NCBI RefSeq assembly: GCF_009696265.1
Contig: NZ_VUMH01000004.1
Location: 186,001 to 250,000, forward strand
Direction of reading: 5' to 3'
DNA length: 64,000 nt
Source of the DNA: Desulfovibrio porci
Lineage (GTDB): Bacteria; Desulfobacterota; Desulfovibrionia; Desulfovibrionales; Desulfovibrionaceae
Shown here one piece after another: positions 12,499-27,019 of the stretch; within the stretch, counting starts at the first letter, position 1, and each line of letters starts with the position of its first letter. The position numbers and the translations under genes are program-made. The notes beneath the pieces were generated by a model. That model saw only the letters and a program-made list of their open reading frames with translations, had not been told where the DNA came from and did not search any database.

Positions 12499-12543
<45 letters not shown>

Positions 12544-12558
12544 CGCTTTCACGGCAGA

Positions 12559-13791
12559 TTATTGCGCGGCGCGCAATTCATCCAAATAGTCAGCCCACCG
12601 CTGAAGCATCTCCCGGCGTTTTTCCAGATAAGAGGCATGGTTGTAAGCATCCCGGACGGTATTCTGTTCTTTGTGAGCAAGTTGGGCCTCGATGATGTCA
12701 GCATCAAAGCCCCATTCCAGCTTCTTTTCATTAAGAATGGTGGAAAACATGGCGCGGAAGCCGTGAATGGTCATTTCCTCCTTGCTGAATCCCATTCTGC
12801 GGATACCGTTTAGCAGGGCCATGTCGGAAATGCACTGTGAAGCGGAGTAGCGACCAGGAAAGCACAACTCGCCTGAGCCGGTCAGCAGATGTAGTTCCCT
12901 GAAAAGTGTGACAACCTGTCGCGGCAGGGGAACCATATGGGCGATACGCATTTTCATGCCGCCGCCATCCTTGGCGTTTTCACGGCGGGCAGCGGGGACA
13001 ATCCACAGAGCCTTGTCCAGATCGATTTCCGACCATCTGCCGCCTCGCAGTTCCATGCTGCGTAGGGCCAGATAGGGCAATATCTTGAGGGCATAGCCCA
13101 CGATGACGCCGCCCTCATATTCGTCTATGCAGCGCAAGAGGTGCCCCACGGCGGCGGGGTCGGTCATGGTTGCGTAGTGCCTGGTTCGGACAGGCTTGAG
13201 AACTTCCTTGAGGCCATCAGCGGGGTTGAAAAGGATATAACCACAGGTACGCGCGAAGCGGAAAACCTGTCCGGCAGTCTCCGCCAGCTTATGCGCGGTG
13301 ACTGAATGTCCGGCTGCTTCAACAGGGCGAATCGCGCTCAAGACATCCGCAGGAACAAGGGTCGTAATGGGCTTGTCGCCGATGTGCTCTTTGAGCAAAT
13401 CAAGGAGCCATTGCTTTTTCTTGATCTGGGAAGCGGCGTAAACATCCTTTTTGGTGTCAAACCATTCCTGCGCGACTACCGCGAAGGTAAGGGCCTGTTC
13501 CTTGGCGATGGCTTCGGCTTCCGCCTTGGCGGCTTTCTTGTGCGCTCCAGGATCAATGTCCTTGGCAAGCAGTTCCTTGGCCTGATCTCGCTTGCCACGA
13601 GCATCCTTCAGGGAAACGGTCGGGTACGCGCCGAAACTCAGGGTTTTTCGTTTTCCGTCAAAACGGTAATCCATACGCCACAATTTTCCACCGGTGGCGG
13701 AGAGGTACAGGTACAAACCTTCGGAATCGGCAAGTTTGGTTGGAGTACCGTCAGACTTCAACTTTCGCAGCATGGTGTCGGTCAGGGGCAT
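12559..13791 (-). CDS. P4-type tyrosine recombinase / integrase
   Basis: A 410-residue site-specific recombinase that inserts and excises the island at tRNA-Leu. It has the N-terminal arm-binding domain of P4-like integrases (LADSEGLYLYL, KTLSFGAYPTVSLKDAR), a core-binding helical domain, and a catalytic domain with Arg in LRSMELRGG, HGFR (TIHGFRAMFST), an LAHKE segment and the nucleophile Tyr in AYNHASYLEKR. Length and order are normal, so it looks intact. GAGG lies upstream of the ATG. It reads away from the tRNA 3' end about 200 bases away, the standard arrangement for islands that use the tRNA end as attachment site. Confidence 0.95.
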   Translation of the reverse strand: MPLTDTMLRKLKSDGTPTKLADSEGLYLYLSATGGKLWRMDYRFDGKRKTLSFGAYPTVSLKDARGKRDQAKELLAKDIDPGAHKKAAKAEAEAIAKEQALTFAVVAQEWFDTKKDVYAASQIKKKQWLLDLLKEHIGDKPITTLVPADVLSAIRPVEAAGHSVTAHKLAETAGQVFRFARTCGYILFNPADGLKEVLKPVRTRHYATMTDPAAVGHLLRCIDEYEGGVIVGYALKILPYLALRSMELRGGRWSEIDLDKALWIVPAARRENAKDGGGMKMRIAHMVPLPRQVVTLFRELHLLTGSGELCFPGRYSASQCISDMALLNGIRRMGFSKEEMTIHGFRAMFSTILNEKKLEWGFDADIIEAQLAHKEQNTVRDAYNHASYLEKRREMLQRWADYLDELRAAQ

Positions 13792-13998: not shown

Positions 13999-14026
13999 TG
14001 GTGCCGAAGGGGAGACTCGAACTCCC
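13999..14026. other. Island attachment site (right end) in tRNA 3' end
   Basis: The 3' end of tRNA-Leu, covering the T arm and acceptor, directly faces the integrase gene. P4-type integrases cross over in such tRNA ends and leave a direct repeat at the far end of the island. The far end is outside this window, so the repeat cannot be checked here and the core boundaries are approximate. Confidence 0.5.
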
Positions 14027-14085
14027 ACTCCCTTGCGAGAACTAGACCCTGAACCTAGCGTGTCTACCAATTCCACCACTTCGGC
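13999..14085 (-). tRNA. tRNA-Leu (anticodon CAG)
   Basis: An 87-base class II tRNA with acceptor arms GCCGAAG / CTTCGGC, the D-arm GTGGAATTGGTAGACACGC, an anticodon stem CTAGG with loop TTCAGGG, a long variable arm and the T-loop GTTCGAGTC. The anticodon CAG is at 14049-14051 (CTG on the plus strand). CCA is encoded at 13999-14001. It is the insertion site of the genomic island to its left. Confidence 0.97.
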
Positions 14086-14883: not shown

Positions 14884-15468
14884 TTACCAGCCGGGCAAAA
14901 ACGTCCGCCCGGCATACGGCTGCGGAATGCGTAAGACATCGGACAGGGGCAGGGCCAGATACCGGGCCAGAAGGCATCTGTTCAGCCCGGCATGCCCGGC
15001 CAGGATCAGCAGCCCGTCGGGATAGCGCGCCCGCCAGCGCGCGAGAGCGGCCAAGGCCCGCTCCTGCACCCGGGCAAAGCTCTCACCGCCGGACGGGCTG
15101 AACAGGGCGAAATCCCGTCCGCGCCGGGCGTACTCGCCGGGAAAGGCCCATTCCACTTCAGCGGGCGTGCGCCCTTCCCAGGCTCCCAGGTTGATCTCGC
15201 GCAGGTCCGCGTCCGCGTGCACGGGCAAGGGACGTCCGGCGACGGCCGCAAGAATGGCTGCGGTTTCCCGGCAGCGGGACAAATCCGAACAGAGCAGCGC
15301 CGTGAGCCGCGGATCAGCCAGCACCGGCGTCATATCCGCCGCCAAAGCCCTGATCTGGGAGCGGCCCGTCCCGCTCAGCGGCAGATCGCGCGCACCCACG
15401 AAACGCCGCTCCGGATTGGGCGGCAATGCGCCGTGGCGCACGAGCCAGAGCCCCCGTTCGGCCGTCAC
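14884..15468 (-). CDS. Histidine phosphatase (phosphoglycerate mutase-like)
   Basis: A 194-residue protein with the phosphohistidine motif LVRHGAL near the N-terminus, CSDLSRCRETA, LREINLGAWEGR and the second catalytic His in LAGHAGLNRC. It resembles CobC/alpha-ribazole-phosphatase-type enzymes, but the substrate cannot be read from sequence. The GTG start overlaps the stop of the NTP transferase-HD gene (GTGA), making it the last of eight coupled genes. The context suggests it removes a phosphate from an intermediate in cofactor or enzyme maturation. Confidence 0.83.
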   Translation of the reverse strand: MTAERGLWLVRHGALPPNPERRFVGARDLPLSGTGRSQIRALAADMTPVLADPRLTALLCSDLSRCRETAAILAAVAGRPLPVHADADLREINLGAWEGRTPAEVEWAFPGEYARRGRDFALFSPSGGESFARVQERALAALARWRARYPDGLLILAGHAGLNRCLLARYLALPLSDVLRIPQPYAGRTFLPGW

Positions 15469-16697
15469 CGCCCTCCCCCGTTTCCGGCGACGGCCTCCAG
15501 CCAGACATCGTCTTCAGCCAACGCCGCCAAAGCCTCACGGGCAATCTCGGCGGGCGCCCGCCCCGCTTCACGGGCCAGACGTGCCTCCATGGCGCGGGCG
15601 CGGGCAAGGCGGCCCCGGATGGCCGCGCAGGCTTCGGGATCAGCGGCGAAAATCTCCAGCTTCTGGCCGAAACGCCGCTCAAGCGGCACAAAATCGTGGC
15701 CTCGGCAATACTTGTCCGCCAGGTAGACCAGTTCGCGTTCGCTCAGCGGAGCATGCTCGGGCAGACTCAGATCGCGATGGTCAGTCACCAGCGCAGCGGC
15801 CGCGGGCAGCCCCAGCTCCGCCAGAAAACGGCCGCCGGCTTTTTCATGGTACGGCTGTCCTTTGCATATGTCGTGCAGCAGTCCGCCTGCGCGCGCCAAT
15901 TCAGGATCAGGGCCGCTGCCGGGAGCATCCTCCCGCTCTTCCCGGCGCTCGCGCAGGGTCCGCGCCAGAGCCGCCGCCACCGCGCCCACGGCGCGGGCAT
16001 GACGCAAACCACGCTCCTGCACCCGGCACAGGCGCAGGAGGCTCCAGGCTTCAGCGGGCGAGAGCGCATCCCGCCCGGCAGCCAGATCTTGCAGTCGGGC
16101 GTATTCCTCAGGATGATCCATATCTTCCAGAATAAAAGAATCCGCCACCGGCACGTCCCGCCGGGGCAGGTCGGCCAGGGCCGCGCGCAGCCCGCCTTGG
16201 CCGCCCCGCCGCTCGTGGGCCAGAATATGCTCCCGGTACAGGACAGGCAGCAATGGCGGATGACCGCTTTTGCCGTTAAAAGAGGGCATAAGCACCTGAG
16301 GCGGTCCGGCCGGGGATTCCTCCGCCGCGGCGTCCAGCAGTGCGGAAAGGGTCATGGGGCGGACCAGAGGCACGTCCACCGGATGCACAAAGCAAGACTC
16401 GCAGTCCACGGGCATGGCGCGCAGGCCCGCGCAGACCGAGGAAAACATACCCCGCTCCGGCCGGGGATTGCGCGCCACGGCCAAGCCCAGATCCCGCGCG
16501 GCCGCTTCCACATCCTCGGCATGGAAACCGCTGACCACCAGAATGTCGTCCACGCCCAAGCCGCGATAGCAACGGGCCAGCCCTTCCAAGGCGGAACAAG
16601 ACGCGCCGTCGGGCAGCAGGGGCAAGGGCAGCAGGGCTTTCACCGCCCCCATGCGGGAAGCCTGACCCGCCGCCAGCAATATGGCGCAATACTTCAC
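15465..16697 (-). CDS. NTP transferase (MobA/MocA-like) fused to HD domain
   Basis: A 410-residue fusion. The N-terminal ~190 residues are a nucleotidyltransferase with ILLAAGQASRMGAVKALLP, VHPVDVPLVRP and NGKSGHPPLLP, close to molybdenum-cofactor cytidylyl/guanylyltransferases. The C-terminal ~180 residues are an HD hydrolase with LRHARAV, LLHDICKG and VTDHRDL. I start it at GTG 16697, which overlaps the ligase stop as GTGA, rather than at the longer frame from 16715. A MocA-like enzyme would attach CMP to molybdopterin to give the MCD cofactor used by Mop-type enzymes. The HD part is unexplained. The family matches what I recall as the DVU_1551 type of Desulfovibrio vulgaris. Confidence 0.85.
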   Translation of the reverse strand: MKYCAILLAAGQASRMGAVKALLPLPLLPDGASCSALEGLARCYRGLGVDDILVVSGFHAEDVEAAARDLGLAVARNPRPERGMFSSVCAGLRAMPVDCESCFVHPVDVPLVRPMTLSALLDAAAEESPAGPPQVLMPSFNGKSGHPPLLPVLYREHILAHERRGGQGGLRAALADLPRRDVPVADSFILEDMDHPEEYARLQDLAAGRDALSPAEAWSLLRLCRVQERGLRHARAVGAVAAALARTLRERREEREDAPGSGPDPELARAGGLLHDICKGQPYHEKAGGRFLAELGLPAAAALVTDHRDLSLPEHAPLSERELVYLADKYCRGHDFVPLERRFGQKLEIFAADPEACAAIRGRLARARAMEARLAREAGRAPAEIAREALAALAEDDVWLEAVAGNGGGR

Positions 16698-17812
16698 AGC
16701 CGTACTCCTGCACAAGGCCGTTTAGCTTGCGCCGCGCCGCCCTTGGCCGGACGAATCACACGGAACGGCGACGTCGGCCCGGCGCTGGTGTCCAGCCGCC
16801 CCAGCAAAGGGCCCAGACGCGGCAAGGGACTGCCGCAACGGCAGGGGCCCGGCAACAGGCTGGCCGCGTCGCCGGTGCGATAGCGGATCAGCGGCATGGC
16901 CTCGCGGTTGAGAGTGGTCAGCACCACCTCGCCGACCCGGCCCGGCGGCAACGGCCCGCCATCGCGCGGGTCCACCACTTCCAGCAGAGTGTCCAGGGCG
17001 CGCAGATGATAACCGTCATGGGCCGGACACTCCACGGCGCAACCGAAACCGCTTTCCGTCAGGCCGTAATGATCCAGCAATTCGCACCCCCAAGCCGAGC
17101 GTAGTTTTTGCCCCAGAGCCGGATCAAGCCAATCCGCGCTGGACAGCGCCCCACGCAGCCCAGGCGGGGCGGCCCGCGGAAAGCTTCGCAGCAATGCCTC
17201 CAGTTGCGCCGGAGCGGCCACCAGTACCTGAGGCCGCCGCTCCGCCAGCCGGCAGGCCATGGCGGTCTCATCGACGGTCGACGCGGCGGGCAATCCTTCC
17301 ACAAGAACGCCGGACGGCCCCAGAGCCTGGCGCAAAAGGTCCGCTACGCCATCAGGGCGCTCCGCCCCCGGCAGGAGCACGGCCAGACGGTCGCCTTCCT
17401 TCACCAGCTGGCTCAGGCCCACACGAAAAAAATCCCGGGTGCGGTCCAGATCACGCGCCGTAAAAGCCAGACGCTTGGGCGTGCCCGTGGTGCCCGAGGT
17501 TTCCAGGCTGACCATGCGTTGCACGTCACCCTGCGACACGCAGCAAAAATGCCGCCAGTCGCGCAGATGACCGGCCGTGGTGAAGGGCAGACGGACCAAA
17601 TCCTCCAGTCCTTTCATTTCCAGATCACAACCGGCCAGATGCCGGGCATAAAATGAGCTGTGCGTGACGGCCCGGCGCAACAGCCGGTTCAGGGCTTCGG
17701 TTTGCGCCGCGCGCAGCCGCGACGGCAGATCCCCGGGAGAAGCCGCGCCGCAGGCCTGGCCCAGCCAGAGGTCCATGGGATGGGCAAAAGAGACGGTCCT
17801 TCCCCGGCTCAT
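16694..17812 (-). CDS. AMP-forming ligase (phenylacetate-CoA ligase-like)
   Basis: A 372-residue adenylating enzyme with the P-loop SLETSGTTGTPKRLAFTARD, the motif DHYGLTESGFG and YRTGDAASLLPG. It is shorter than typical PaaK ligases (~430 residues) and keeps little of the mobile C-terminal domain, so it may only adenylate or use an unusual acceptor. Near residue 340 a CRCG pair is visible. The ATG at 17812 overlaps the radical SAM stop (ATGA). The substrate is unknown; its placement between a radical SAM enzyme and a nucleotidyltransferase suggests activation of a maturation intermediate. I recall this as the DVU_1553-type ligase family. Confidence 0.83.
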   Translation of the reverse strand: MSRGRTVSFAHPMDLWLGQACGAASPGDLPSRLRAAQTEALNRLLRRAVTHSSFYARHLAGCDLEMKGLEDLVRLPFTTAGHLRDWRHFCCVSQGDVQRMVSLETSGTTGTPKRLAFTARDLDRTRDFFRVGLSQLVKEGDRLAVLLPGAERPDGVADLLRQALGPSGVLVEGLPAASTVDETAMACRLAERRPQVLVAAPAQLEALLRSFPRAAPPGLRGALSSADWLDPALGQKLRSAWGCELLDHYGLTESGFGCAVECPAHDGYHLRALDTLLEVVDPRDGGPLPPGRVGEVVLTTLNREAMPLIRYRTGDAASLLPGPCRCGSPLPRLGPLLGRLDTSAGPTSPFRVIRPAKGGAAQAKRPCAGVRL

Positions 17813-19263
17813 GCCCAAGCCCCGGCATAGAGGCGCGCACCGTCGCGGGCCGTGAGATTGTGCAGGCAGAAGGGCACCAGCCGCCCGTCCGGCTGGAGCA
17901 CATGGATGCAGCAGCCGCGCACCCGTTCCAGATCCAGACTGTAGACGTCCTGAAAGGCCATGGCCGAAATGGTGAAGCGTTGCTCCGCTCCGGCCCGGCT
18001 CAGAAAACGGCTGAAATCGTCGGCCCCGTCCTCTGCGCAGTTCGCGCCTATCGCGCCGGGCGCGTCCGCCGTGCGTCCCGGCCCGTCTCCCTTCCAGTGC
18101 AAAGCCACAAACTGTTTGGCCTTGCGCGCGCCCTCCGCCGCCGGGGGCGGCGCGGGAGAACAGCAGGACTGCGCGGCCTGGGGCAGCCATTCCAGACGCT
18201 CACCCCCCGGGCCGGTCCGGCGGTAGGCGGCGCTGAAAGAACAGAGCGCGTGCTCGCAGCCCGGCGGGTGGAACTGCGCCAGGCGGACCAGTTCCGGCGC
18301 TTGTCGCGCCAGGGCGGCCATGACTTCGGGCAGTGTCAGCCGCGGCGCGTCGCTCAGGCTCCAGGGATAGCGGCCGAACGAGGCCACAGGCTGAAAATGC
18401 ACGCCGCGCACCGCCGGTCCCAAACGGAGGGCCAGGTGGAGCAGATCGCCCAGCTCGCCGTCATTGACATGTCGGGCCAGAGTGGCCACCAGCACCACGC
18501 CCAGGCCAGCGGCGGAGCAGGCTTCCACGGCGCGGCGCTTCAGTTCCAGGCAGGGCCTGCCGCGCAGCGCTTCAAACACGGCCTCGCGCACGCCGTCCCA
18601 TTGCAGATAGACGGAATCCAGACCGGCGGCCCGCAGACGAGCGGCATAGCCCGCTTCCCGGCCCAGACGCAGGCCGTTGGTGTTGAGCTGCACCAAGCCG
18701 AAACCGCACTCCCGCGCCAAGGCCACAATGGCGGGCAGGTCTTCGCGCACAGTGGGTTCGCCGCCGGAGATCTGCACATTGCAGGCCCCGGAGGCCGCCT
18801 TCAGGCTGTCCAGTTGCGCGGCCAGCGCCGTCAGGGAAGGATCGGGCGGCAGGGTTTCCGGTCCTTTTCCGGCTCCGGCGTAGCAGACCGGGCAGGCCAG
18901 ATCGCAACGCATGGTCACTTCCAGCAGGCCGGTGCAGGTGTGCTGGGCGTGCCGGGCACAAAGCCCGCAGTCAAAGGGACAGCCCCCCTCTACCACTGTA
19001 CGGGGTTCCGCCGGATAGGAAGGGCTTTTGGGCCGGGACCATGCTTCAAAGGGCGGCACAACCTCCGCCCCCGCATCCGGCGCGTCGCCGGGCGCGGGAG
19101 CAGGGGCGGTCCAGACCGGCACGCTGAACGCGCCGTGCTCCGGGCAGGTCTTGCGCAGAAAAACGTCTCTCTCCGCCGCATCCGGCCCGTCGGGCCGCTC
19201 GTACACGGCGTCAATGCGGCGCAGGCAGACCGGGCAAAGGCTTTGCGTGCGACGCAGAATCAC
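17809..19263 (-). CDS. trsS: Radical SAM protein of the molybdenum hydroxylase locus (TrsS-like)
   Basis: A 484-residue radical SAM protein. The cluster motif is RCDLACPVCYAG (CxxxCxxC) near residues 140-150. It is preceded by an extra cysteine region: CPVCLRR at the N-terminus, TCPEHGAF, and EGGCPFDCGLCARHAQHTC. This N-terminal layout is like that of the tetraether lipid synthase (Tes/MJ0619) group and implies extra Fe-S or zinc sites. SGGEPTVREDLP and QLNTNGLRLG are standard core motifs. A CC pair (QSCCSP) lies in the C-terminal part. GTG at 19263 overlaps the upstream stop (GTGA). RefSeq uses the name TrsS for such proteins as I recall; the reaction is not established. Confidence 0.85.
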   Translation of the reverse strand: MILRRTQSLCPVCLRRIDAVYERPDGPDAAERDVFLRKTCPEHGAFSVPVWTAPAPAPGDAPDAGAEVVPPFEAWSRPKSPSYPAEPRTVVEGGCPFDCGLCARHAQHTCTGLLEVTMRCDLACPVCYAGAGKGPETLPPDPSLTALAAQLDSLKAASGACNVQISGGEPTVREDLPAIVALARECGFGLVQLNTNGLRLGREAGYAARLRAAGLDSVYLQWDGVREAVFEALRGRPCLELKRRAVEACSAAGLGVVLVATLARHVNDGELGDLLHLALRLGPAVRGVHFQPVASFGRYPWSLSDAPRLTLPEVMAALARQAPELVRLAQFHPPGCEHALCSFSAAYRRTGPGGERLEWLPQAAQSCCSPAPPPAAEGARKAKQFVALHWKGDGPGRTADAPGAIGANCAEDGADDFSRFLSRAGAEQRFTISAMAFQDVYSLDLERVRGCCIHVLQPDGRLVPFCLHNLTARDGARLYAGAWA

Positions 19264-19745
19264 AAGGCCACTCCGGCGGACGCGACGGTCAGGTCCAGAT
19301 CATAACTCTCGGCCAGTTCCAAAATCTTTTCCCAGCATTCGGCCAGCAAATCGCCGCAGGCCACAGGATCGGGCGTGGCGGCCGTTCCGCTTCCGCCGGA
19401 CGCCGCCCCCAAGCCCGCCGCGATGCAGCCGCAACGGATGCCGCCGTAAGAGGTGACGCGTTCATAAAACCATGTGGCATAATCGTTGAGCAAGGGCGTA
19501 AGCATGGGGTGGGCCGTCTCGTCGTCCGCGCCCTTGCCCGCCGCCAGGGCCAGAGCGCAGGCCCCGCCGGTCAGCAGGCCGCAGGGGCCGTCAGACTGGC
19601 CGATGCCATGGCAAAGTCCGTGCATGGCGCGCACCAGATCGGGATTTTGCCGGTCCTGCGCCTGAAGCATGAGCAACAGCAGCAACTGGCTGCAACAATA
19701 GCCCTGGTGGACCAAAGGCAGTAAATCCAGCATGAGGGGATTCAT
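19260..19745 (-). CDS. C_GCAxxG_C_C family protein
   Basis: A 161-residue protein with the family signature: GYCCSQ near the N-terminus, GLCHGIGQSDGPCGLLTGGACALAL, then YGGIRCGC and ACGDLLAECWEKI. The conserved cysteines suggest a metal or Fe-S site, or a redox role. ATG 19745 overlaps the methyltransferase stop (ATGA); the longer frame from 19769 lies inside that gene. In this setting it may carry a cluster or sulfur for the radical SAM step, which is inference. I recall it as the DVU_1555-type family. Confidence 0.87.
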   Translation of the reverse strand: MNPLMLDLLPLVHQGYCCSQLLLLLMLQAQDRQNPDLVRAMHGLCHGIGQSDGPCGLLTGGACALALAAGKGADDETAHPMLTPLLNDYATWFYERVTSYGGIRCGCIAAGLGAASGGSGTAATPDPVACGDLLAECWEKILELAESYDLDLTVASAGVAL

Positions 19746-20476
19746 GAGCACTCCTTTTGCGCAATCCACAAGCCGTAGCCGAAAGCCCCGCGCCCGGATG
19801 AAACACCGCCACAGGTGCAGCCGCCGCGCAGCCAGTGGGGCGCGGCCCCGGCCCCGTACCAGACCAGCCGGGCCGCCAGATCGGCCAGCGCCGGGCTGTG
19901 GTCCTCAAAACAATGGAGCAGAAAACCCGCCCGCGCAAGCAGGCCGTCCCACTCCGCGCGCGGGCGCGCCCCGTCCAGGCAGGAAGTTCCTTCCCGACAG
20001 GCCAGCCGCGCGGCTGGCCCGCCCTCACCCTCTGTCATGTCCGCGCGCCGGAAAAGATCGCTCAACAGCAGCGCGCCGCCGGGACGCAAGGCCCTGTGAC
20101 AGTCGCGCAATGCGGCCAGAGGATCGGGCAGCAGAGAAAGCACGCATTCGCAAAGCACGCCGTCCAGGCAGCCTTCGGCCAGGGGCAGCCGCGCGGCGTC
20201 AGCCCGCAGAAAAGCGGTTGCCGCGTCACGGCCCGCCCGCTCCGCCCAATTCGCGTGGCCTCGCCGGTCCAATCCCAAGAGGCGGTAGCCCCGGCCGGCC
20301 AGAAACTCCAGACTCGCGCCCGCGCCGCAGCCCATATCCAGCAGACGCGCGCCGGGCGCGAAACCGCAACAGCGCGCGCCCAGTTCCAGCGCGCGCCGGG
20401 TCAGCGCCAGACCGCCGGGCCGCCAGGTTTCGCCCGCCGCGCGTTGAAAGTCATCCTGTTCCCAGAGGGCGTTCAC
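19742..20476 (-). CDS. SAM-dependent methyltransferase of the molybdenum hydroxylase locus
   Basis: A 244-residue class I methyltransferase with motif I LLDMGCGAGASLEFL, then LLGLDRRG, and a UbiE-like LPLAEGCLDGVLCECVLSLL followed by ALRPGGALLLSDLF. The C-terminal end has LRGGCTCGG, a Cys pair unusual for small-molecule methyltransferases. I start at GTG 20476, which overlaps the stop of the zinc-ribbon gene (GTGA); the longer upstream frame lies within that gene. The target is unknown. It corresponds to the DVU_1556/TrsM-type family as I remember it. Confidence 0.83.
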   Translation of the reverse strand: MNALWEQDDFQRAAGETWRPGGLALTRRALELGARCCGFAPGARLLDMGCGAGASLEFLAGRGYRLLGLDRRGHANWAERAGRDAATAFLRADAARLPLAEGCLDGVLCECVLSLLPDPLAALRDCHRALRPGGALLLSDLFRRADMTEGEGGPAARLACREGTSCLDGARPRAEWDGLLARAGFLLHCFEDHSPALADLAARLVWYGAGAAPHWLRGGCTCGGVSSGRGAFGYGLWIAQKECS

Positions 20477-20688
20477 TTGTCTTCCAGCAGAGCTTCCACT
20501 TCCAGCATTTTGCCTTCGGCCAGGGATTTGGGCGCCATGGTCAGCCCGCACTGCGGGCAACGCGGCAAAAAAACGTCAAAGGCGCTGTTCAGATAAAAAA
20601 CCTGCACCTTGCCCTGCTCCAAAGGGCAACCGCAGCGGCCGCACCGCCACTGGCCGCCGTCCGGCGGATAACTGGGTCCCATGGTCAT
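20473..20688 (-). CDS. Small CxxC zinc-ribbon redox protein (DVU_1557-like)
   Basis: A 71-residue protein with two Cys pairs, CGRCGCPL and PRCPQCGLT, separated by ~20 residues (VQVFYLNSAFDVFLP), followed by a Leu/Glu-rich tail. The pairs suit a rubredoxin-like or zinc-ribbon fold. ATG 20688 has GGAGGGG upstream and overlaps the stop of the preceding gene (ATGA). A small electron carrier or scaffold for the maturation pathway is plausible. Confidence 0.8.
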   Translation of the reverse strand: MTMGPSYPPDGGQWRCGRCGCPLEQGKVQVFYLNSAFDVFLPRCPQCGLTMAPKSLAEGKMLEVEALLEDK

Positions 20689-23090
20689 GCGCTTTCCCCT
20701 CCCCGCCCGCAGCAGTCCGCTCCATCGGGGCCGTTTTCGTCCCCCTGGCCGCCGGAGCCGGGCACGCGCATACGGTGGCACCAGGCGTCATAGAGCACAA
20801 GTTCGCCGTCCTCGCGGCCGTATTCCACCCAGAAGGTCACCTGCCGGGGCCGCCAGGAACCCAGCCAATGCCCGTTCTCCTGATTTTCAAAGCGTTGGCC
20901 GCAGGCTTCGGCTCCGGCCACGGCCTCTTCCACATCCGAAAGCAGAATATGCTTTTCTTCCAGGCGGGCCAGCAGCTCCGGCGCCACGCGCAACGCGCCC
21001 AAAGCCGGTTCCGGCAGGTTTTCCCCCATCCAGTCGCGCAGCAGGCGGCGGCGCAGGGCCGCCCGGTTGGCCCGACGGGCCGACAGCCCGGGCCCCTTGC
21101 GGCTGCCCTTGTCCGCATCCTCCTCCGCGTCCGGTCCGGGGAAAAGCAGGTCCAGCAGGTGCCAGCTTTCCTTGCCGCCCGCCGCCAGACGGTCCCGGCA
21201 CATGATGCAGGAGGTCAGCGCCGGATACGGCAGCTCGGCGGCGCGATGCCCGCTCATCTCCCGGGCCAGTTCGGGCTGGGCGCACCAGACCAGGCCGCCG
21301 TAGCCGCAACAGGCGGTAGTCGCGCCGGTCAGGCGCGGTTCTTCAAGGCGCGCGCCGCATTTACGGGCCAGACTGCGCACGGCCTCCAGCCAGACCGTGT
21401 CCCAACGGGCCGTGCAGGGATCGTGGATGGAAAAAGCCTCCGCTGCCGGAGCTCCGCCGTTCCCTTCGCGGCGCGGCGGCAGGGGCAGACCGTCCAGCAC
21501 TTCCCAGACGGACACGGCCTCCGCCCCGGGCAGGGCCTGGCGCAGGGCACTCAGGCAGGAGGAGCAGGCCGCCATGATCCGGGGCCGTCCCAGCGCTTCC
21601 CACTGCTCTTTGAGCCGGGCCGTATGCCGCGCGAACAGGGCCTCGCGCCCGGCCCAGCGCGCCGGGATGCCGCAACAGGAAAGCAGCAGGGAGACGCCGC
21701 CCCGACCGTCGCGGTACGGCAGGGACGCGTGCAGAAAATCATAAAGCGCGGCTGTCTGCTCCCCGCACGAGGCTGCCAGTTGGCAGCCGGGAAAAAACAG
21801 CCATGACGCCCGTCCGCCCTCGGGCAGCGCGGAATCCGGCAGCACCAGGGCGCATTCCGGCCCGGAGGCGTTTTCCATGTCCTCCAAGGCGAATTCATGG
21901 GCCGAGGGCGGCATGAAATCGCGCTGTACCATATCCTCGCGCGCCGCCAGGCAAAGTTCGGCCATGGAGAAATTCTCCGGGCACAATTCCTCGCACTGCC
22001 CGCAGAGCGCGCAGCCGTTGATCAAAGCGTTGGCCGTGTGCAGACCCTTGACGATGGAGGCGTTATTATGAACCTGGCGGGCGTAGACGCGCGGATAGCC
22101 CTTGTATTTTTGCAGATAGACGCATTCCTTCACGCAGATCAGGCACTGGCACTGCAGACAGCGTCCGGCCTCCAGGGCCGCCTCTTCCGGCGTATAGAGC
22201 GGGCCGGAGGGCTCCACCCGCTCCAACGGAACAATGCCGTCCAGCGGGGTGTGCAGCGGGCCCTGCGCCTTTTCGCGCGCCGCCGTGAGCGATACCTTGC
22301 CCACCAGCCGCTCCAGAGTCTGGGCGGCGTGGCGGCCCTCGCCGGCTTCCGCCGAGGCCGAGGCGCAGGCATGTCCCGTGGGCGTTCGGCCGGGCCAGCC
22401 CGCGCAACAGATATTGTCGCGCCAGTGCAGGGTCCGCGCGTCCAGGCTTTCCCGTGACGGGGCCAGATCCGGGGCCGCTCCGGCATCAATGAGCAGACCG
22501 TCGAAGGTTTTTTCAGCCTGCGCCAGGCAGTCCGCATCCAGCGGCGACGGGCTGAACTCCACCTTCTGGCGGGCCAGCAGTTCCCAGTCTTCGGCCAGGG
22601 GATCACCGTCCGCCCCGTCTGCGCCTCCGGGGCGCAGGGCCGGATACCGCGCCAACAAAGCGCTTTGCGGGTCGCCCTGATAGAAAACCGTCACCGGATA
22701 GCCTTTGCGCGAAAGGTCCCAGGCCGCCGCCAGCCCCGCCAGCCCCGCGCCCAGCACAGCCAGGCGGAACTTCTTGCGCGGCATGGGCAGGGATCGGCTT
22801 TGCGTGCCCACGGCGCGCGCGCAGGCCTGCTCCAGGGCGTGGATGGCCAGGCTGCCGCCCAGATCCAGGCGCAGGCAGACGCTCTCGCAGGGGTGATCGC
22901 AAATCCGGGCCAACACGCCCGGCAGGGGCAGGTGGCGCTCCAGAAGCTTGCGGGCCTCGGCCGGGCGGCCTTCGGCCATGCGGGCCATAAAGCCCCGCAC
23001 GTCCAGATTGAACGGACAGGCCGACCGGCAGTGCGGCGGACTTTCCTGGGTACAGCGGGCTTCGATTTCGTGCAGACGGTTCTGATCCAT
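20685..23090 (-). CDS. Multidomain Fe-S / nucleotide-binding electron-transfer protein
   Basis: An 801-residue fusion. Residues ~1-90 are a GltD-type N-terminal Fe-S domain (HCRSACPFNLDVRGF, ICDHPCESVC). Next comes a Rossmann dinucleotide-binding segment (LAVLGAGLAGLAAAWDL) in a shortened oxidoreductase domain. About residue 320 a dicluster ferredoxin part begins (CLQCQCLICVKEC, CALCGQCEELC). The C-terminal half has two CCG domains like HdrB/GlpC (FFPGCQLAASC, LSCCGIP, TACCGYGGL, CIMCRDRLA). I start at ATG 23090; a GTG at 23105 is possible. It probably moves electrons between NAD(P)H and partner proteins, perhaps Mop or the radical SAM enzyme. RefSeq calls similar proteins pyridine nucleotide-disulfide oxidoreductase/dicluster-binding protein, as I recall. 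Confidence 0.85.
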   Translation of the reverse strand: MDQNRLHEIEARCTQESPPHCRSACPFNLDVRGFMARMAEGRPAEARKLLERHLPLPGVLARICDHPCESVCLRLDLGGSLAIHALEQACARAVGTQSRSLPMPRKKFRLAVLGAGLAGLAAAWDLSRKGYPVTVFYQGDPQSALLARYPALRPGGADGADGDPLAEDWELLARQKVEFSPSPLDADCLAQAEKTFDGLLIDAGAAPDLAPSRESLDARTLHWRDNICCAGWPGRTPTGHACASASAEAGEGRHAAQTLERLVGKVSLTAAREKAQGPLHTPLDGIVPLERVEPSGPLYTPEEAALEAGRCLQCQCLICVKECVYLQKYKGYPRVYARQVHNNASIVKGLHTANALINGCALCGQCEELCPENFSMAELCLAAREDMVQRDFMPPSAHEFALEDMENASGPECALVLPDSALPEGGRASWLFFPGCQLAASCGEQTAALYDFLHASLPYRDGRGGVSLLLSCCGIPARWAGREALFARHTARLKEQWEALGRPRIMAACSSCLSALRQALPGAEAVSVWEVLDGLPLPPRREGNGGAPAAEAFSIHDPCTARWDTVWLEAVRSLARKCGARLEEPRLTGATTACCGYGGLVWCAQPELAREMSGHRAAELPYPALTSCIMCRDRLAAGGKESWHLLDLLFPGPDAEEDADKGSRKGPGLSARRANRAALRRRLLRDWMGENLPEPALGALRVAPELLARLEEKHILLSDVEEAVAGAEACGQRFENQENGHWLGSWRPRQVTFWVEYGREDGELVLYDAWCHRMRVPGSGGQGDENGPDGADCCGRGGESA

Positions 23091-23124: not shown

Positions 23125-23144
23125 GGGGGAGGTTGCCCTCCCCC
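23125..23144 (-). terminator. Terminator-like hairpin after mop
   Basis: GGGGGAGG (23125-23132) pairs with CCTCCCCC (23137-23144) around a 4-base loop, followed on the minus strand by TTTCATTT. It lies 17 bases after the mop stop and before the maturation genes, so it could reduce read-through from mop to them. Confidence 0.65.
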
Positions 23145-23160
23145 CTGTTTTCGGGTTGTT

Positions 23161-25884
23161 TTACTTGGGCATGGCTTCCAGCACCTTTTCCGGATAGGCG
23201 GGCAGGTGCGTGATGCGCGCGCCGCAGGCGTTATAGATGGCGTTGATAATGGCCGGGTGCGGCGCGGTGAGGGGCATTTCGCCCACGCCCGACGCGCCGT
23301 GCGGGCCGTCCTTACGCGGAGTCTTCACATAGACGATTTCCATGTCGTCGGGAATCATCTGGATGGAAGGAATGCCCGCGCCGCCCATGGTGCTGTGCTT
23401 CTTGATGTCCTCATAGTCCTCGGACAGGGCCAGGCCCACGCCCTGCGCCAGACCGCCGTAGATCTGGCCGTCCACGATCAGTTCGTTGCACAGTTCGCCG
23501 ATGTCGGCCACGCAGGTGAGCTTTTCCACCTGGGTTTTGCCGGTAGCCTTTTCCACGGCCACTTCGGCCATGAACAGGCCGTACATGTAGCAGGCGAAGG
23601 GGCTGCCCTGACCGTTGGCGTCACAATCCTTGGCCGGGGCGGACCACTTGCCGTCATAGCGCAACGCGCGGCCTTCGGCCTTCATGCCCTCATAGTCCAG
23701 GAAGCCGCCGGCGGGCTTGCGCATGCCCTCCATAAGGGCTTCGCAGGCCACGCGGATGGCGTTGCCCGTGACCACCTGGGAACGCGAACCGCCCGCCGGG
23801 CCGGAGTTGGGCGTCTTGCTGGTGTCGTTCATCACCAGGCGGATTTTGTCCGCCGGGACGCCCAAGGGACGCAGGGTTTCGTGGGCCGTGCCCAGCGCTC
23901 CGGAATCCGCGCCTTGGCCGTGATCTTCCCAAGAGGACCCCACGGTCACGCCGCCGTCCTCATTGAGTTCCACCCAGGCTTCGGAGGTGTCCGGGCCGTC
24001 CAGGCCCGCGCCGTACACGCCCAGAGCCACGCCCACGCCGCGTTTGACTTCGGGGGTGGATTTTTCGGCCGCGCGTTTTTTGGCGGCTTCGTATTTGGGC
24101 CGCATGATGTCGAACATCTCCGGCAGGCTCATGACTTCGGGGACCTGCCCGGTGGGCGTGGTGTCGCCTTCTTTGTAGCAGTTCAGAGCGCGCAGTTCAA
24201 AGGGGTCCATGCCCAGCTTCTCGGCCAGCATGTCCATGAGCACTTCGGAGGGGAATTCGCTCTCCGGCGCGCCGTAGCCGCGGAAGGCCGCGCCCCAGCA
24301 GTGGTTGGTGGCCACGGTGCGGCCCTTGCCCCGGATGTTGGGGATGCCGTAGCCCGCGCCGATGTACTGCGCGCCGCGCAGGGTCAGCAGGTCGCCGAAT
24401 TCGGAATACGGGCCGTGGTCCACGGACCAGTCCGTTTCCATGGCCAGGATTTTGCCCTGCTTGTTGGCGGCGTAGCGCATGGTGGTCCAGAAGGGCGAAC
24501 GCTTGCCGGTGTACTGCTGCTGTTGTTCATAGTTGTAGCGCAGGTGGCAGGGACGGCCCGTGGCCATGACGGCCACGCCGATCAGGGCTTCCATGGTGGG
24601 GCTGAACTTGTAGCCGAAAGTGCCGCCCGTGGTATTCTGCACCAGGACCAGATCCTTGGGGAATTCCAGGCCCAGGCCGGGCGCGATCATCAGGGCGTGC
24701 AGATGGATGCCCACGGATTTGGAGTGGATGACCACCTGGCCCTGTTCATTGATGTAGCCGTAGCCCACATCCGGCTCAATGGGCAAATGGGGCTGCCGCT
24801 GGGTGTAGAAGCTGCCTTCCGCCACCACATTGGCGGGATCGTCGAAGAAGGGTTTGGTGTCCTCGCCCTTGGCTTCGTTCTGGTCGTAGTAGACGTTGGG
24901 CGTGCCGGGATGGATTTCAATGGCGTCCGGGGCCATGGCCTCGGGCGCGCTCATGTATTCGGGCAGCAGTTCCAGATCGAATTTGACCTTTTCCGCCGCG
25001 GCGCGGGCGTTGCACTCGCTGTCCGCGCAGACGATGGCCAGGGCGTCGCCGTACTGGAAGATCTTGGAGTCATTCAGGATGGGCCGTTCCCAGCCGTCAC
25101 CCTTGTTGGTGGGGAAAGTGATCAGGCCGGTGATGCGGTTTTTGCCCTTGACGTCCTTATGGGTCAGCACCCGGTAGACGCCGGGCATCTTTTCGGCTTC
25201 GGAGGTGTCGATGCCCTTGATGACGGCATGGGAAACCTTGGCCTGGGCCAGGGCCAGATGCAGGGTGTCGGGCGGCAGACGGTAAGCGGCGTCGGCGCCG
25301 AATTCCGCCACGCCCGTGACCTTGGCCACGGCACTGGGCCGGGGGATGCGCGACCCCCAGATGCGACCGTCGGCGGGCATCTTGAACTGGATGTCCTCCA
25401 GGGTTTTTGCGCCGCGCATCACGGCCGCCGCGTCCATGACCGCGTCCACCAGCGGTTTGTAGCCGGTGCAGCGGCAAATATTGTGATGTTTCTGGAACCA
25501 GTCGCGCACGTCCTCACGGCTGGGATTGGGATTTTCATCCAGCAGGCCCTTGGCCGACACGATGAAGCCCGGCGTGCAGAAACCGCACTGCGCCGCGCCG
25601 TGGTAAATCCAGGAATGCTGCAAAGGATGCAGGCAGGTGGGCGTGCCGATGCCTTCCAGGGTGGTGACGGCGGCGTTTTCCGCCACGCGGCGCATTTTGA
25701 CGATGCAGGAGCGCACCACCTTGCCGTCCAGAATCACGGTACAGGCGCCGCACTGGCCCTTGCCGCAGCCCACTTTGACGCTCGTCAACTGCAACTGCCC
25801 GCGCAACACGTCAACCAGGCTGTCGTCGGGGTTGACCAGCAATCGTCTGGGAATGCCATTGACCACAAGAGTTTTTGTTTCCAT
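23161..25884 (-). CDS. mop: Molybdenum aldehyde oxidoreductase (Mop)
   Basis: A 907-residue xanthine-oxidase-family enzyme that oxidises aldehydes to carboxylic acids using an MCD molybdenum cofactor and two [2Fe-2S] clusters, with no FAD domain. Residues 1-~75 form the plant-type [2Fe-2S] domain (VGCGKGQCGACTVILDG). The second helical cluster domain follows (AQCGFCTPGF, NICRCTGYKPL). Then come the large Mo-binding domains, including GGTFGYKFSP, AFRGYGAPE and GASGVGEMPLTAPH with the catalytic Glu. Length and sequence closely follow D. gigas Mop from memory. AAGGAG lies 7 bases upstream of the ATG at 25884; the longer frame has no such site. It is transcribed after the MoeA-like gene. Confidence 0.97.
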   Translation of the reverse strand: METKTLVVNGIPRRLLVNPDDSLVDVLRGQLQLTSVKVGCGKGQCGACTVILDGKVVRSCIVKMRRVAENAAVTTLEGIGTPTCLHPLQHSWIYHGAAQCGFCTPGFIVSAKGLLDENPNPSREDVRDWFQKHHNICRCTGYKPLVDAVMDAAAVMRGAKTLEDIQFKMPADGRIWGSRIPRPSAVAKVTGVAEFGADAAYRLPPDTLHLALAQAKVSHAVIKGIDTSEAEKMPGVYRVLTHKDVKGKNRITGLITFPTNKGDGWERPILNDSKIFQYGDALAIVCADSECNARAAAEKVKFDLELLPEYMSAPEAMAPDAIEIHPGTPNVYYDQNEAKGEDTKPFFDDPANVVAEGSFYTQRQPHLPIEPDVGYGYINEQGQVVIHSKSVGIHLHALMIAPGLGLEFPKDLVLVQNTTGGTFGYKFSPTMEALIGVAVMATGRPCHLRYNYEQQQQYTGKRSPFWTTMRYAANKQGKILAMETDWSVDHGPYSEFGDLLTLRGAQYIGAGYGIPNIRGKGRTVATNHCWGAAFRGYGAPESEFPSEVLMDMLAEKLGMDPFELRALNCYKEGDTTPTGQVPEVMSLPEMFDIMRPKYEAAKKRAAEKSTPEVKRGVGVALGVYGAGLDGPDTSEAWVELNEDGGVTVGSSWEDHGQGADSGALGTAHETLRPLGVPADKIRLVMNDTSKTPNSGPAGGSRSQVVTGNAIRVACEALMEGMRKPAGGFLDYEGMKAEGRALRYDGKWSAPAKDCDANGQGSPFACYMYGLFMAEVAVEKATGKTQVEKLTCVADIGELCNELIVDGQIYGGLAQGVGLALSEDYEDIKKHSTMGGAGIPSIQMIPDDMEIVYVKTPRKDGPHGASGVGEMPLTAPHPAIINAIYNACGARITHLPAYPEKVLEAMPK

Positions 25885-25943: not shown

Positions 25944-26987
25944 TCATTTGCCGAAAGGACAAATGGGATAGTGACACTGCGGACAGGCGGAGCAGAACCC
26001 GCCGTGCCCCAGCACGGCCACGTCTTCCGCCGTCACCTCGAGTCCGGCCAGCAGGCGCGGCACCAGCAGGTCAAAAATGCTCGCCTTGTGATACATGACG
26101 CAGCCGGGCAGACCCAGCACCGGCACGCGTCCCTTGGGCGTCCGGACGTAGGCCAGCAGGAACATGGCCCCCGGATAGACGGGCGCGCCGTAACTGACCA
26201 CTTCCGCCCCGGCGGCGCGGATGGCCGCCGGAGTGCGGTCGTCCGGATCCACCGACATGCCGCCGGTGACCACCACCATATCCGCGCCCTGTTGCAGGAA
26301 ATCCCTGATGGCCGAGGCGGTCATTTCCACCTCGTCGCTGGTCAGGGTCTGGCCCATGACCGCGCTGCCCAGGGCTGCGAATTTTTTCCGCAGCACCGGG
26401 CCGAACCCGTCCTGAATCCGCCCGTAAAAGACTTCGCTGCCCGTGGTGACCATGCCCACCTGAAAACGCCGCAGGGGCAGCACTTCCACCACCGGGCCTC
26501 TGACCATGACCTCAAGGGCGCGCAGCTTTTCATCGTCAATCAGCAGGGGCACAACGCGGGTGCCCGCCACCTCCCGGCCCTTGTCCACCTTTTGCAGGCT
26601 GTGCAGCGTGGCCAGGGTGATTTCGCCCAGACTGTTGATGCGGCCGAGCGCGGCCACATCCACCCGCAGCAGGCCGTCACAGGCGGCGGAAAAATTGATC
26701 CGCCCTTCCTTGGGTTCGCTGAGCAGAATGTTGGCTCCGGCCGTGGCCGCCGCAATGCGGGCCGCGGCCTCGTTTTCATGCACCAGGCCCGGCTGCGGCT
26801 CAAAAACGTAAAGATGTTCCTTGCCCACTTCCAGCAGTACCGGGATGTCTTCCTCCCGCACCACATGGCCTTTGCGGAAGACCGGCCCCTTGCTCTGCCC
26901 CGGCACGATACGGGTAATGTCATGACAGAGCACGCTGCCCACAGCGTCGCGCACATCAATGGTTTTCATGGCGGCCGGTTTGGACAT
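25944..26987 (-). CDS. MoeA-like molybdopterin-binding protein with Cys-rich tail
   Basis: A 347-residue protein with a MoCF-biosynthesis (MogA/MoeA-type) domain: VGMVTTGSEVFYGRIQDGFGP, VVVTGGMSVDPDDRTP and LGLPGCVMYHK. An N-terminal ~130-residue domain starts VRDAVGSVLCHDITRIVPG. It ends in a cysteine-rich tail (CSACPQCHYPICPFGK), seen in molybdopterin-binding proteins near molybdenum hydroxylases. It likely helps insert metal into, or hand over, the cofactor for Mop, encoded 59 bases downstream. I start at 26987, where GGAG sits 9 bases upstream, rather than at 27002. Confidence 0.88.
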   Translation of the reverse strand: MSKPAAMKTIDVRDAVGSVLCHDITRIVPGQSKGPVFRKGHVVREEDIPVLLEVGKEHLYVFEPQPGLVHENEAAARIAAATAGANILLSEPKEGRINFSAACDGLLRVDVAALGRINSLGEITLATLHSLQKVDKGREVAGTRVVPLLIDDEKLRALEVMVRGPVVEVLPLRRFQVGMVTTGSEVFYGRIQDGFGPVLRKKFAALGSAVMGQTLTSDEVEMTASAIRDFLQQGADMVVVTGGMSVDPDDRTPAAIRAAGAEVVSYGAPVYPGAMFLLAYVRTPKGRVPVLGLPGCVMYHKASIFDLLVPRLLAGLEVTAEDVAVLGHGGFCSACPQCHYPICPFGK

Positions 26988-27019
26988 GAAAGAATTCTCC
27001 ATTCATATGTTTTTAGCAA

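Follow-up and report, generated by a model that had tools for sequence, protein, structure and literature searches.

The window analyzed here (the whole stretch of 64,000 nucleotides from Desulfovibrio porci) carries on its minus strand a cassette of eight genes, 14884-23090, located 70 bp downstream of mop (Table 1). Reading the sequence directly, we observed that its seven successive junctions are all 4-base overlaps, ATGA at 20685, 19742 and 17809, and GTGA at 20473, 19260, 16694 and 15465 (minus strand), as an earlier sequence-only reading had claimed; relative to that reading, small coordinate corrections were made for P2, which has its GTG start at 16697, and for P3. The strict stoichiometric coupling that had been deduced from these overlaps was not sustained, since they are not kept elsewhere (no 4-base overlap is found at the stop codon of at least 42 P7 homologues) and a terminator-like hairpin, identified only as a consensus match, lies in the gap after mop, where it could cause attenuation.

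Table 1. Features of the mop region (window coordinates).
Feature	Position	Strand	Description
P1	14884..15468	-	His_Phos_1 histidine phosphatase, nearest CobC; Mop-linked module
P2	15465..16697	-	MocA-like nucleotidyltransferase + HD domain fusion (NF045665, DVU_1551 family), probable MCD synthase
P3	16694..17812	-	PaaK-like adenylate-forming enzyme, 372 aa (NF045666, DVU_1553 family); trs core
P4 (TrsS)	17809..19263	-	Radical SAM protein, Tes-like cluster architecture (NF045646); trs core
P5	19260..19745	-	C_GCAxxG_C_C redox protein (NF045669, DVU_1555 family); trs core, absent in some core loci
P6	19742..20476	-	SAM-dependent methyltransferase, Methyltransf_11 (NF045667, DVU_1556 family); trs core
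P7	20473..20688	-	Zinc-ribbon protein, 71 aa (NF045645, DUF7479, DVU_1557 family), C-terminus -LEDK; trs core
P8	20685..23090	-	Fer4_20 + FAD-type Rossmann motif + 4Fe-4S dicluster + two CCG motifs + unannotated C-terminal domain (NF045663)
P8 C-terminal domain (CTD)	20736..20996	-	trs core; stand-alone protein elsewhere
Terminator-like hairpin	23125..23145	-	In the 70-bp mop-P8 gap; possible attenuation; consensus match only
Mop	23161..25884	-	Molybdopterin-dependent aldehyde oxidoreductase, 907 aa (NF045668); orthologue of crystallized 1dgj, 1vlb
MoeA-like protein	25944..27002	-	MoCF_biosynth domain, Cys-rich C-terminus; upstream of mop

All eight cassette proteins could be assigned to NCBIfam or Pfam families, most of them with placeholder names. 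P2, P3, P5, P6 and P7 exceed the cut-offs of the models DVU_1551, DVU_1553, DVU_1555, DVU_1556 and DVU_1557, respectively, which confirmed the DVU names given in the sequence-only reading (DVU1551-DVU1559 of D. vulgaris). Most of these families are thus already curated (DVU_1551-DVU_1557, TrsS as NF045646, NF045663, and NF045664, an XdhC-type AOR maturation factor), and since the accessions NF045663-NF045669 run consecutively, the curator probably saw the neighborhood. The models have no assigned function, and a search of a literature library found no functional study of the cassette. What is new in the present analysis is the division into modules, the exchange of Mop for a tungsten-type AFOR, and the conservation of the P7 C-terminus.

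Mop scored 1653 bits against NF045668 (cut-off 1100), aligned with 1dgj over 907 of 907 residues (1897 bits), and is 69% identical to the Mop of D. gigas, the first enzyme of the xanthine-oxidase family to be solved by crystallography and the subject of decades of study. P8 scored 867 bits against NF045663; its two CCG motifs, which were read from the sequence, are HdrB/HdrD-like, and it is probably the electron partner of Mop. Flavodoxin acts as an in vitro electron acceptor of D. gigas Mop (PMC10223205), so a special carrier is not strictly needed there.

The association of the cassette with Mop held when other genomes were inspected, as trsS was detected in 17 of 17 Mop genomes of the phylum sample. 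Firmicutes, Chloroflexi and Campylobacterota also contain the cassette, and the presence of the same core across phyla places the gene set far beyond chance. A comparison of 55 Mop-type loci and their flanks with nine other loci (three AFOR-type and six classified as 'neither') revealed that the cassette is formed by separable modules. P1, P2 and XdhC were found only in the Mop-type loci (34, 37 and 39 of the 55, respectively, versus 0 of 9), and a MoeA-like gene is present in 23 of the 55. In contrast, the set that we refer to as the trs core (CTD, P7, P6, usually P5, TrsS and P3) accompanies both kinds of locus: among the 55 Mop-type loci, CTD and P7 were each found in 54, P6 and P3 each in 53, and P5 in 52, and the nine other loci all contain CTD, P7 and P6, with P3 in eight.

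At three loci, a tungsten-type AFOR stands in place of Mop beside the trs core. The corresponding TrsS sequences branch within the Mop-type tree at two distinct positions, which corresponds to two independent swaps. In L113 and L142, AFOR and MoeA genes lie directly upstream on the same strand, with Fer4 also in L113, and in L088 the AFOR gene is divergent and accompanied by Fer4 and HdrD-like genes. The idea that an HdrD-like protein always partners the core was not upheld, given that it is absent from L113, L142 and L081. The sequence-only reading had named genomes with the eight genes and no molybdenum hydroxylase as evidence against its proposal. Such genomes were found for the core: TrsS, P6 and P7 are present and no MoCoBD_1 protein was detected in G070, G036, G096 and G115, with P3 in all but G070. 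None was found for P1, P2 and XdhC.

The proposal that MCD maturation and additional chemistry meet in one operon was supported by the Mop-linked genes. P2 scored 408.9 bits against NF045665 (cut-off 315) and 84.9 bits against the MocA model TIGR03310, below its cut-off of 186. According to family searches, from which all genome-wide statements for this genome derive, it is the only convincing MocA-like protein encoded (87 bits, while the next best reached 30); because of this, P2 is probably the MCD synthase, and the possibility that it is one of several MocA copies was ruled out. Judging from its family and distribution, P2 would form MCD from Mo-molybdopterin and CTP, aided by the MoeA-like protein, XdhC, and perhaps P1. 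For P1, only membership in His_Phos_1 is safe, as its score against CobC (alpha-ribazole phosphatase, TIGR03162) was 131.7 bits, below the cut-off of 162.9. XdhC, encoded outside the cassette in this genome, is present in 17 of 17 Mop-positive genomes and is clustered with the cassette in many loci, which excludes the cassette as an XdhC replacement.

The ligase, methyltransferase and radical SAM steps had been suggested to modify either the cofactor itself or its sulfur ligand, and the evidence went against this suggestion. D. gigas (genome G211), whose Mop is 100% identical to the crystallized enzyme, carries the same cassette, yet the structures of its Mop, at up to 1.28 Å (PMC10223205), show an ordinary MCD whose equatorial ligand is oxo, and the enzyme does not require sulfido (PMC3877041). 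This argues that the product of the core is not in Mop, and the AFOR swap and the Mop-less genomes with the core also speak against a change of the cofactor. Pterin methylation, suggested by the Pfam name of the TrsS zinc ribbon (HMPTM), was discarded as a precedent, since this activity of MJ0619 was not corroborated: MJ0619 is the tetraether synthase (PMC9433317). A broader alternative assigns to the core the maturation or repair of the Mo/W pterin cofactor in aldehyde oxidoreductases generally, through a modification or a transient step of metal or sulfur insertion. It is favored by the operon context, in which MCD and Mo-insertion genes join the core in Mop-type loci and MoeA does so in two AFOR-type loci, and it agrees with the pyranopterin dithiolene common to Mop and AFOR and with the MoaC still encoded in the Mop-less genomes that bear the core. 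However, besides the ordinary, sulfido-free MCD of D. gigas and the uncorroborated role of MJ0619, G197 encodes TrsS above the cut-off and a P3-like gene and has no MoaC, Mop or AFOR; its tandem TrsS genes, without P6 and P7 nearby, may represent a different system. We consider this alternative rather unlikely. As the core is also associated with a tungsten enzyme unrelated to Mop, it probably makes something that the enzymes use and not a change in the metal cofactor.

TrsS scored 565.6 bits against NF045646 (cut-off 490), and its closest solved relative is Tes (7tol, E 7e-71). When the ligand positions were assigned by alignment to 7tol, whose ligands have been named (PMC9433317), we observed that the rubredoxin-type CxxC, the His-ligated N-terminal cluster (CxxxCxxCxxH), the radical SAM motif CX3CX2C, and the Met and Cys of the C-terminal cluster are kept in 103-104 of 104 sequences. 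However, TrsS differs from Tes (GDGT-MAS, MJ0619) in its gene context, in an extra invariant Cys (C110 in the window protein), and in two traits that ruled it out as a Tes: a score of 292.7 bits for the window protein against NF045702, below the cut-off of 450, and the replacement of Tyr459, which Tes strictly conserves. This position corresponds to V455 in the window protein and is occupied by V in 74, I in 12, T in 8 and S in 3 of the 104 sequences, with no Tyr among the residues listed. A selenocysteine site was also considered as a clue and rejected, as no in-frame TGA was found in the well-aligned part in 80 loci, save odd end hits.

The closeness to 7tol raises the alternative that the cassette is devoted to the synthesis or modification of membrane lipids, with TrsS as a Tes-like lipid enzyme of bacteria. 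All tested metal ligands are common to both proteins, and neighbors of the HGD-D family, which includes plasmalogen and ether-lipid enzymes, are found in two Mop-less loci. Nevertheless, this alternative seems very unlikely in view of the substituted Tyr459 and the low Tes score, and the steady partners of TrsS are aldehyde oxidoreductases, with no recurrence of head-group or ether-lipid genes in the neighbor tally. As TrsS matches 7tol at E 7e-71, surveys that count bacterial Tes as lipid genes at E < 1e-50 (e.g., PMC8941075) may include TrsS linked to aldehyde oxidoreductases.

P3 (394.6 bits against NF045666, cut-off 300) aligned to residues 22-332 of the 437 of PaaK (2y27), indicating that the adenylation domain is present. 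The window protein lacks the C-terminal lid domain, and the D. gigas P3 matches PaaK up to residue 405, partly keeping it. As PaaK uses this lid for its second half-reaction, the window P3 would have to be assisted in any transfer to a carrier, or a different route would be required. An acid-activating P3 would also suit a metabolic role, in which the core supplies or uses up the aldehyde or acid that Mop or AFOR metabolizes, with the acid formed by Mop being converted by P3 to an acyl-adenylate, followed by methylation and radical bond formation. Fe-containing alcohol dehydrogenases occur near the cassette in eight Mop-type loci, and D. gigas Mop accepts many aldehydes (PMC3877041). However, such a broad range rather suggests general aldehyde oxidation, D. 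vulgaris Mop has been treated under ethanol metabolism (PMC10920352), and the core is also present without Mop, so that we find this role improbable.

P7 contains two CxxC pairs and a near-invariant C-terminus, -LEDK (K 97%, D 94%, E 95%); for the other cassette proteins, the best conservation of the last residue was 40%. The same ending is kept in the homologues, at least 42, that have no 4-base overlap, which reveals selection at the protein level and rules out that it is a by-product of overlapping start codons. Some P7 homologues from Mop-less loci (L073, L074, L075 and L081) no longer have the -EDK ending. Of 197 genomes, 25 gave a DUF7479 match above the cut-off, and all of these were TrsS-positive, Mop-less ones included, except for one with a marginal match (27.3 vs 27 bits). 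G036 was counted as TrsS-positive, though its TrsS frame is split. A Pfam scan of P7 up to E = 1 recovered only DUF7479 and unrelated zinc ribbons, and no homology to LysW; the weak matches of a profile search against the PDB (CTCF zinc fingers; MasE, E 0.009) and the low-confidence predicted structure (pLDDT 63, C-terminus included) were not used. The CTD is a stand-alone protein of 86-92 aa in Mop-less loci and is fused to P7 in L113, L142 and L133; its predicted model (pLDDT 87) gave weak fold matches to RelE/YoeB/BrnT-like proteins.

These observations could also mean that P7, together with the CTD, is the end product, its C-terminus being modified by TrsS, P6 and P3 to give a redox cofactor bound to the protein, which would carry electrons from the aldehyde oxidoreductase to HdrD-like proteins or back. 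The near-invariant end, the adjacent and sometimes fused CTD, and the confinement of DUF7479 to TrsS-positive genomes, save the marginal match, are in favor of this idea. We think it unlikely, because the P7 end is acidic and Lys-terminated, offers no side chain of evident redox activity, is missing from some Mop-less loci and was predicted with low confidence, and because P3 is similar to acyl ligases and not to peptide ligases.

We tentatively prefer the reading that the trs core is a LysW-like, carrier-based biosynthetic unit that makes a small redox partner for aldehyde oxidoreductases. The region would then be an aldehyde-oxidoreductase island of three modules, namely the enzyme, the Mop-specific cofactor supply, and the trs core. 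Mop would oxidize aldehydes and presumably transfer the electrons to P8, the Fe-S/flavin/HdrD-like protein. P3 would turn a carboxylic acid into its adenylate, P7 would hold or hand on the acyl group or an intermediate, with -EDK as the putative attachment or recognition site, and P6 could methylate the P7-borne intermediate. By analogy with Tes, TrsS may form a bond at an unactivated carbon using two SAM per bond, through a carbon-sulfur intermediate with the C-terminal cluster. Both the aldehyde oxidoreductase and its HdrD-like partner would use the product as a small redox partner, and it would not be a change in the Mo cofactor. A more specific version, in which an acyl group borne by the -EDK of P7 and a C-C bond made by TrsS give rise to a new diffusible redox cofactor common to Mop (Mo) and AFOR (W), appears doubtful.

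Parts of this organization recall known systems. The biosynthesis of the FeGP cofactor (Hcg) has the same mix of radical SAM, nucleotidyl transfer, methyl transfer and adenylation enzymes; however, no Hcg homologue was detected here, and the likeness is one of analogy only. With the MocA/XdhC maturation of xanthine-oxidase-family enzymes, the cassette shares the MocA-like P2 and the constant company of XdhC, but P2 has an added HD domain and scores below the MocA cut-off. MocA/XdhC systems are not known to include a radical SAM core. Like the LysW/ArgW carriers, P7 is a small zinc-ribbon protein, conserved up to its very C-terminus and encoded among a ligase and modifying enzymes; however, homology is undetectable, the EDK end is not known from LysW/ArgW, and the ligase is ANL-type instead of ATP-grasp, of which none is present. 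Finally, the window Mop is orthologous to the D. gigas and D. desulfuricans enzymes (1vlb, 1dgj), and the solved enzyme bears no trace of an extra modification. A much-studied enzyme thus adjoins a conserved radical SAM pathway, and because this core also serves a tungsten enzyme unrelated to Mop and is present in genomes that lack a Mo hydroxylase, what this pathway makes, and whether it does so on P7, becomes testable.

The sequence-only reading had described eight genes joined by seven 4-base overlaps, and reading of the sequence bore this out, with a small correction to the start of P2 and a corrected span for P3. A family model is available for every one of the eight proteins. The window's Mop, a molybdopterin-dependent aldehyde oxidoreductase, aligns with 1dgj at 907/907 residues and shares 69% identity with its D. 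gigas counterpart. In the neighboring MoeA-like protein, Pfam finds the MoCF domain only; it carries a Cys-rich C-terminal tail (CSACPQCHYPICPFGK), whose conservation was partially checked. Just past the operon's 3′ end, a phage-type integrase ORF adjoins a tRNA-Leu, likely the boundary of an integrated element, and the 3′ end of that ORF is closely flanked by a perfect (TC)20.5 repeat.

Features of the operon (P1-P8, minus strand), its surroundings and related loci
Feature	Position	Family model or remark
P1	14884-15468	His_Phos_1
P2	start GTG 16697	NF045665, NTP transferase + HD
P3	16694-17812	NF045666, adenylate-forming
P4 (TrsS)		NF045646
P5		NF045669
P6		NF045667
P7		NF045645 / DUF7479
P8	20685-23090	NF045663
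mop	23161-25884	upstream of operon
MoeA-like gene	25944-27002	upstream of operon
Integrase ORF	12559-13791	phage-type
tRNA-Leu	13999-14085	
(TC)20.5 repeat	12500-12540	dinucleotide
Second Mop-like gene	G000:C11:56171-58696 (L213)	window's genome
238-aa membrane protein	L076:2010-2726; L079:10468-11184	between P7 and P6
Desulfurase and ~104-aa protein	L123:8532-9960	also L107, L156, L162
TrsS-DUF5714 fusion	L143:9968-12142	Desulfosporosinus

The facts of distribution are strong. Among 197 genomes sampled across the phylum, 17 encode Mop and 23 encode TrsS over the cut-off, and TrsS is present in 17/17 Mop-positive genomes (Fisher p 7e-20, relatedness ignored), which upholds the association of the cassette with Mop. 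In the window's family (199 genomes), both occur together in 125 at the thresholds used, Mop alone in 9 and TrsS alone in 4. Among the Mop-only genomes, TrsS is present on inspection in G291 and G302, contigs end before it could show in G313, G325 and G223, only divergent paralogues (47-48% identity) occur in G245, and G370, G378 and G380 are incomplete assemblies. Among the TrsS-only genomes, Mop is cut at a contig edge in G304 and G386, the contig of G364 starts within P8, and G197 is a genuine exception. Neither search gave a match in G326 (same genus, 100% complete). Outside the phylum, the order Mop-P8-P7-P6-P5-TrsS-P3 recurs at TrsS loci of Firmicutes, Chloroflexi, Campylobacterota and others. 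The second Mop-like gene, which scores about 1031-1056 bits against NF045668, has its N-terminal 2Fe-2S region broken by stops or out of frame; decay of a paralogue or a fault in the assembly is the probable cause.

The operon had been proposed to add a modification to the Mop cofactor (MCD) or its sulfur ligand. The D. gigas genome, which encodes Mop at 100% identity to the D. gigas sequence, clusters it with MoeA-like, P8, P7, P6, P5, TrsS, P3, XdhC and P1 genes. A stable extra group should be visible in the structures of this enzyme; yet it was solved to 1.28 Å with a well-defined MCD (PMC10223205), and it has an equatorial oxo ligand, sulfido not being required (PMC3877041). A stable modification is therefore not supported, and a transient or labile one is possible. 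Cofactor maturation by the trs core (the P8 C-terminal domain, P7, P6, usually P5, TrsS and P3) is unlikely, although we rank it second. Over the TrsS loci with flanks present, these core genes are nearly constant companions of TrsS, whereas P1, P2 and XdhC are each present at roughly two thirds of the Mop-type loci and at 0/9 others. Since P2 is the sole convincing MocA-like protein of the window's genome (87 bits, next 30) and XdhC, which has its own AOR-linked model (NF045664), was found in every Mop-positive genome tested, the ordinary MCD route is predicted to be complete without the core.

A tungsten-type AFOR-family enzyme replaces Mop at L088 (Desulforhabdus), L113 (deltaproteobacterial MAG) and L142 (Telmatospirillum MAG), which also hold Fer4, HdrD-like or MoeA genes. 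Their TrsS proteins are true members (681, 637.5 and 618 bits; cut-off 490) and branch within the Mop-type tree at two distinct positions; in this tree, built by a quick method, the AFOR label requires two changes, also forced by the starred branches. Neither enzyme lies near TrsS in the sister clade L073-L076 and L079, and G070, G036, G096 and G115 have no MoCoBD_1 protein. AFOR genes are present elsewhere in these genomes, where the core may have a partner encoded at a distance. Metabolism of the substrate or product, as the role of the core, appears improbable. In two genomes, the trs locus, Mop-less in both, encodes a conserved membrane protein with no Pfam or NCBIfam match. G197, 100% complete and lacking MoaC, Mop and AFOR, carries two TrsS genes in tandem, together with genes for a P3-like ligase and an HGD-D-family protein (L177). 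At four loci, a TIGR01977-like cysteine desulfurase and a protein of about 104 aa with no family match lie directly upstream of trsS, which suggests a variant of sulfur or selenium supply. The Desulfosporosinus fusion lies outside any trs core.

P7 ends exactly in -LEDK across 86-92 homologues (L 90%, E 95%, D 94%, K 97%), while the commonest terminal residue of the other cassette proteins reaches at most 40%. Because at least 42 homologues have a TAA or TAG stop codon without overlap, coding overlap does not explain this ending and was ruled out. The three AFOR-type loci have LEEK, LEDK and LEDK; the ending is also kept in L076/L079 and lost in L073, L074, L075 and L081. Over the cut-off, DUF7479 is confined to TrsS-positive genomes, one marginal match excepted. 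In P8, Fer4_20 is joined to a GxGxxG FAD motif, a 4Fe-4S dicluster and two CCG motifs, both complete. At Mop-less core loci the C-terminal domain of P8 stands alone as a small protein, and at L113, L142 and L133 it is fused to P7; the predicted model of this domain is confident, and matches are weak and RelE/YoeB/BrnT-like (E 0.03 or worse). P7, a small zinc ribbon with a fixed C-terminus, encoded among ligase, methyltransferase and radical SAM genes, is analogous to LysW carriers, but a Pfam scan of P7 found no homology to LysW. We infer the chemistry of the core throughout, and tentatively put first a carrier-based synthesis, which would yield a redox partner. That modified P7 is itself the end product seems marginally less likely than cofactor maturation.

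Tes, the tetraether lipid synthase, couples carbons by way of a cluster-bound carbon-sulfur intermediate. TrsS keeps all the Tes metal ligands tested (named in PMC9433317) but never has Tyr459, and it has an invariant extra Cys of its own (C110, 104/104 sequences). Lipid chemistry is the least probable role of the core, a long shot. According to PMC9433317, the methylation of pterin by MJ0619 found no corroboration, so the Pfam name HMPTM does not count as evidence of pterin chemistry and was set aside as a pointer to it. By analogy with Tes, TrsS would have the parts for carbon coupling of this type on another substrate.
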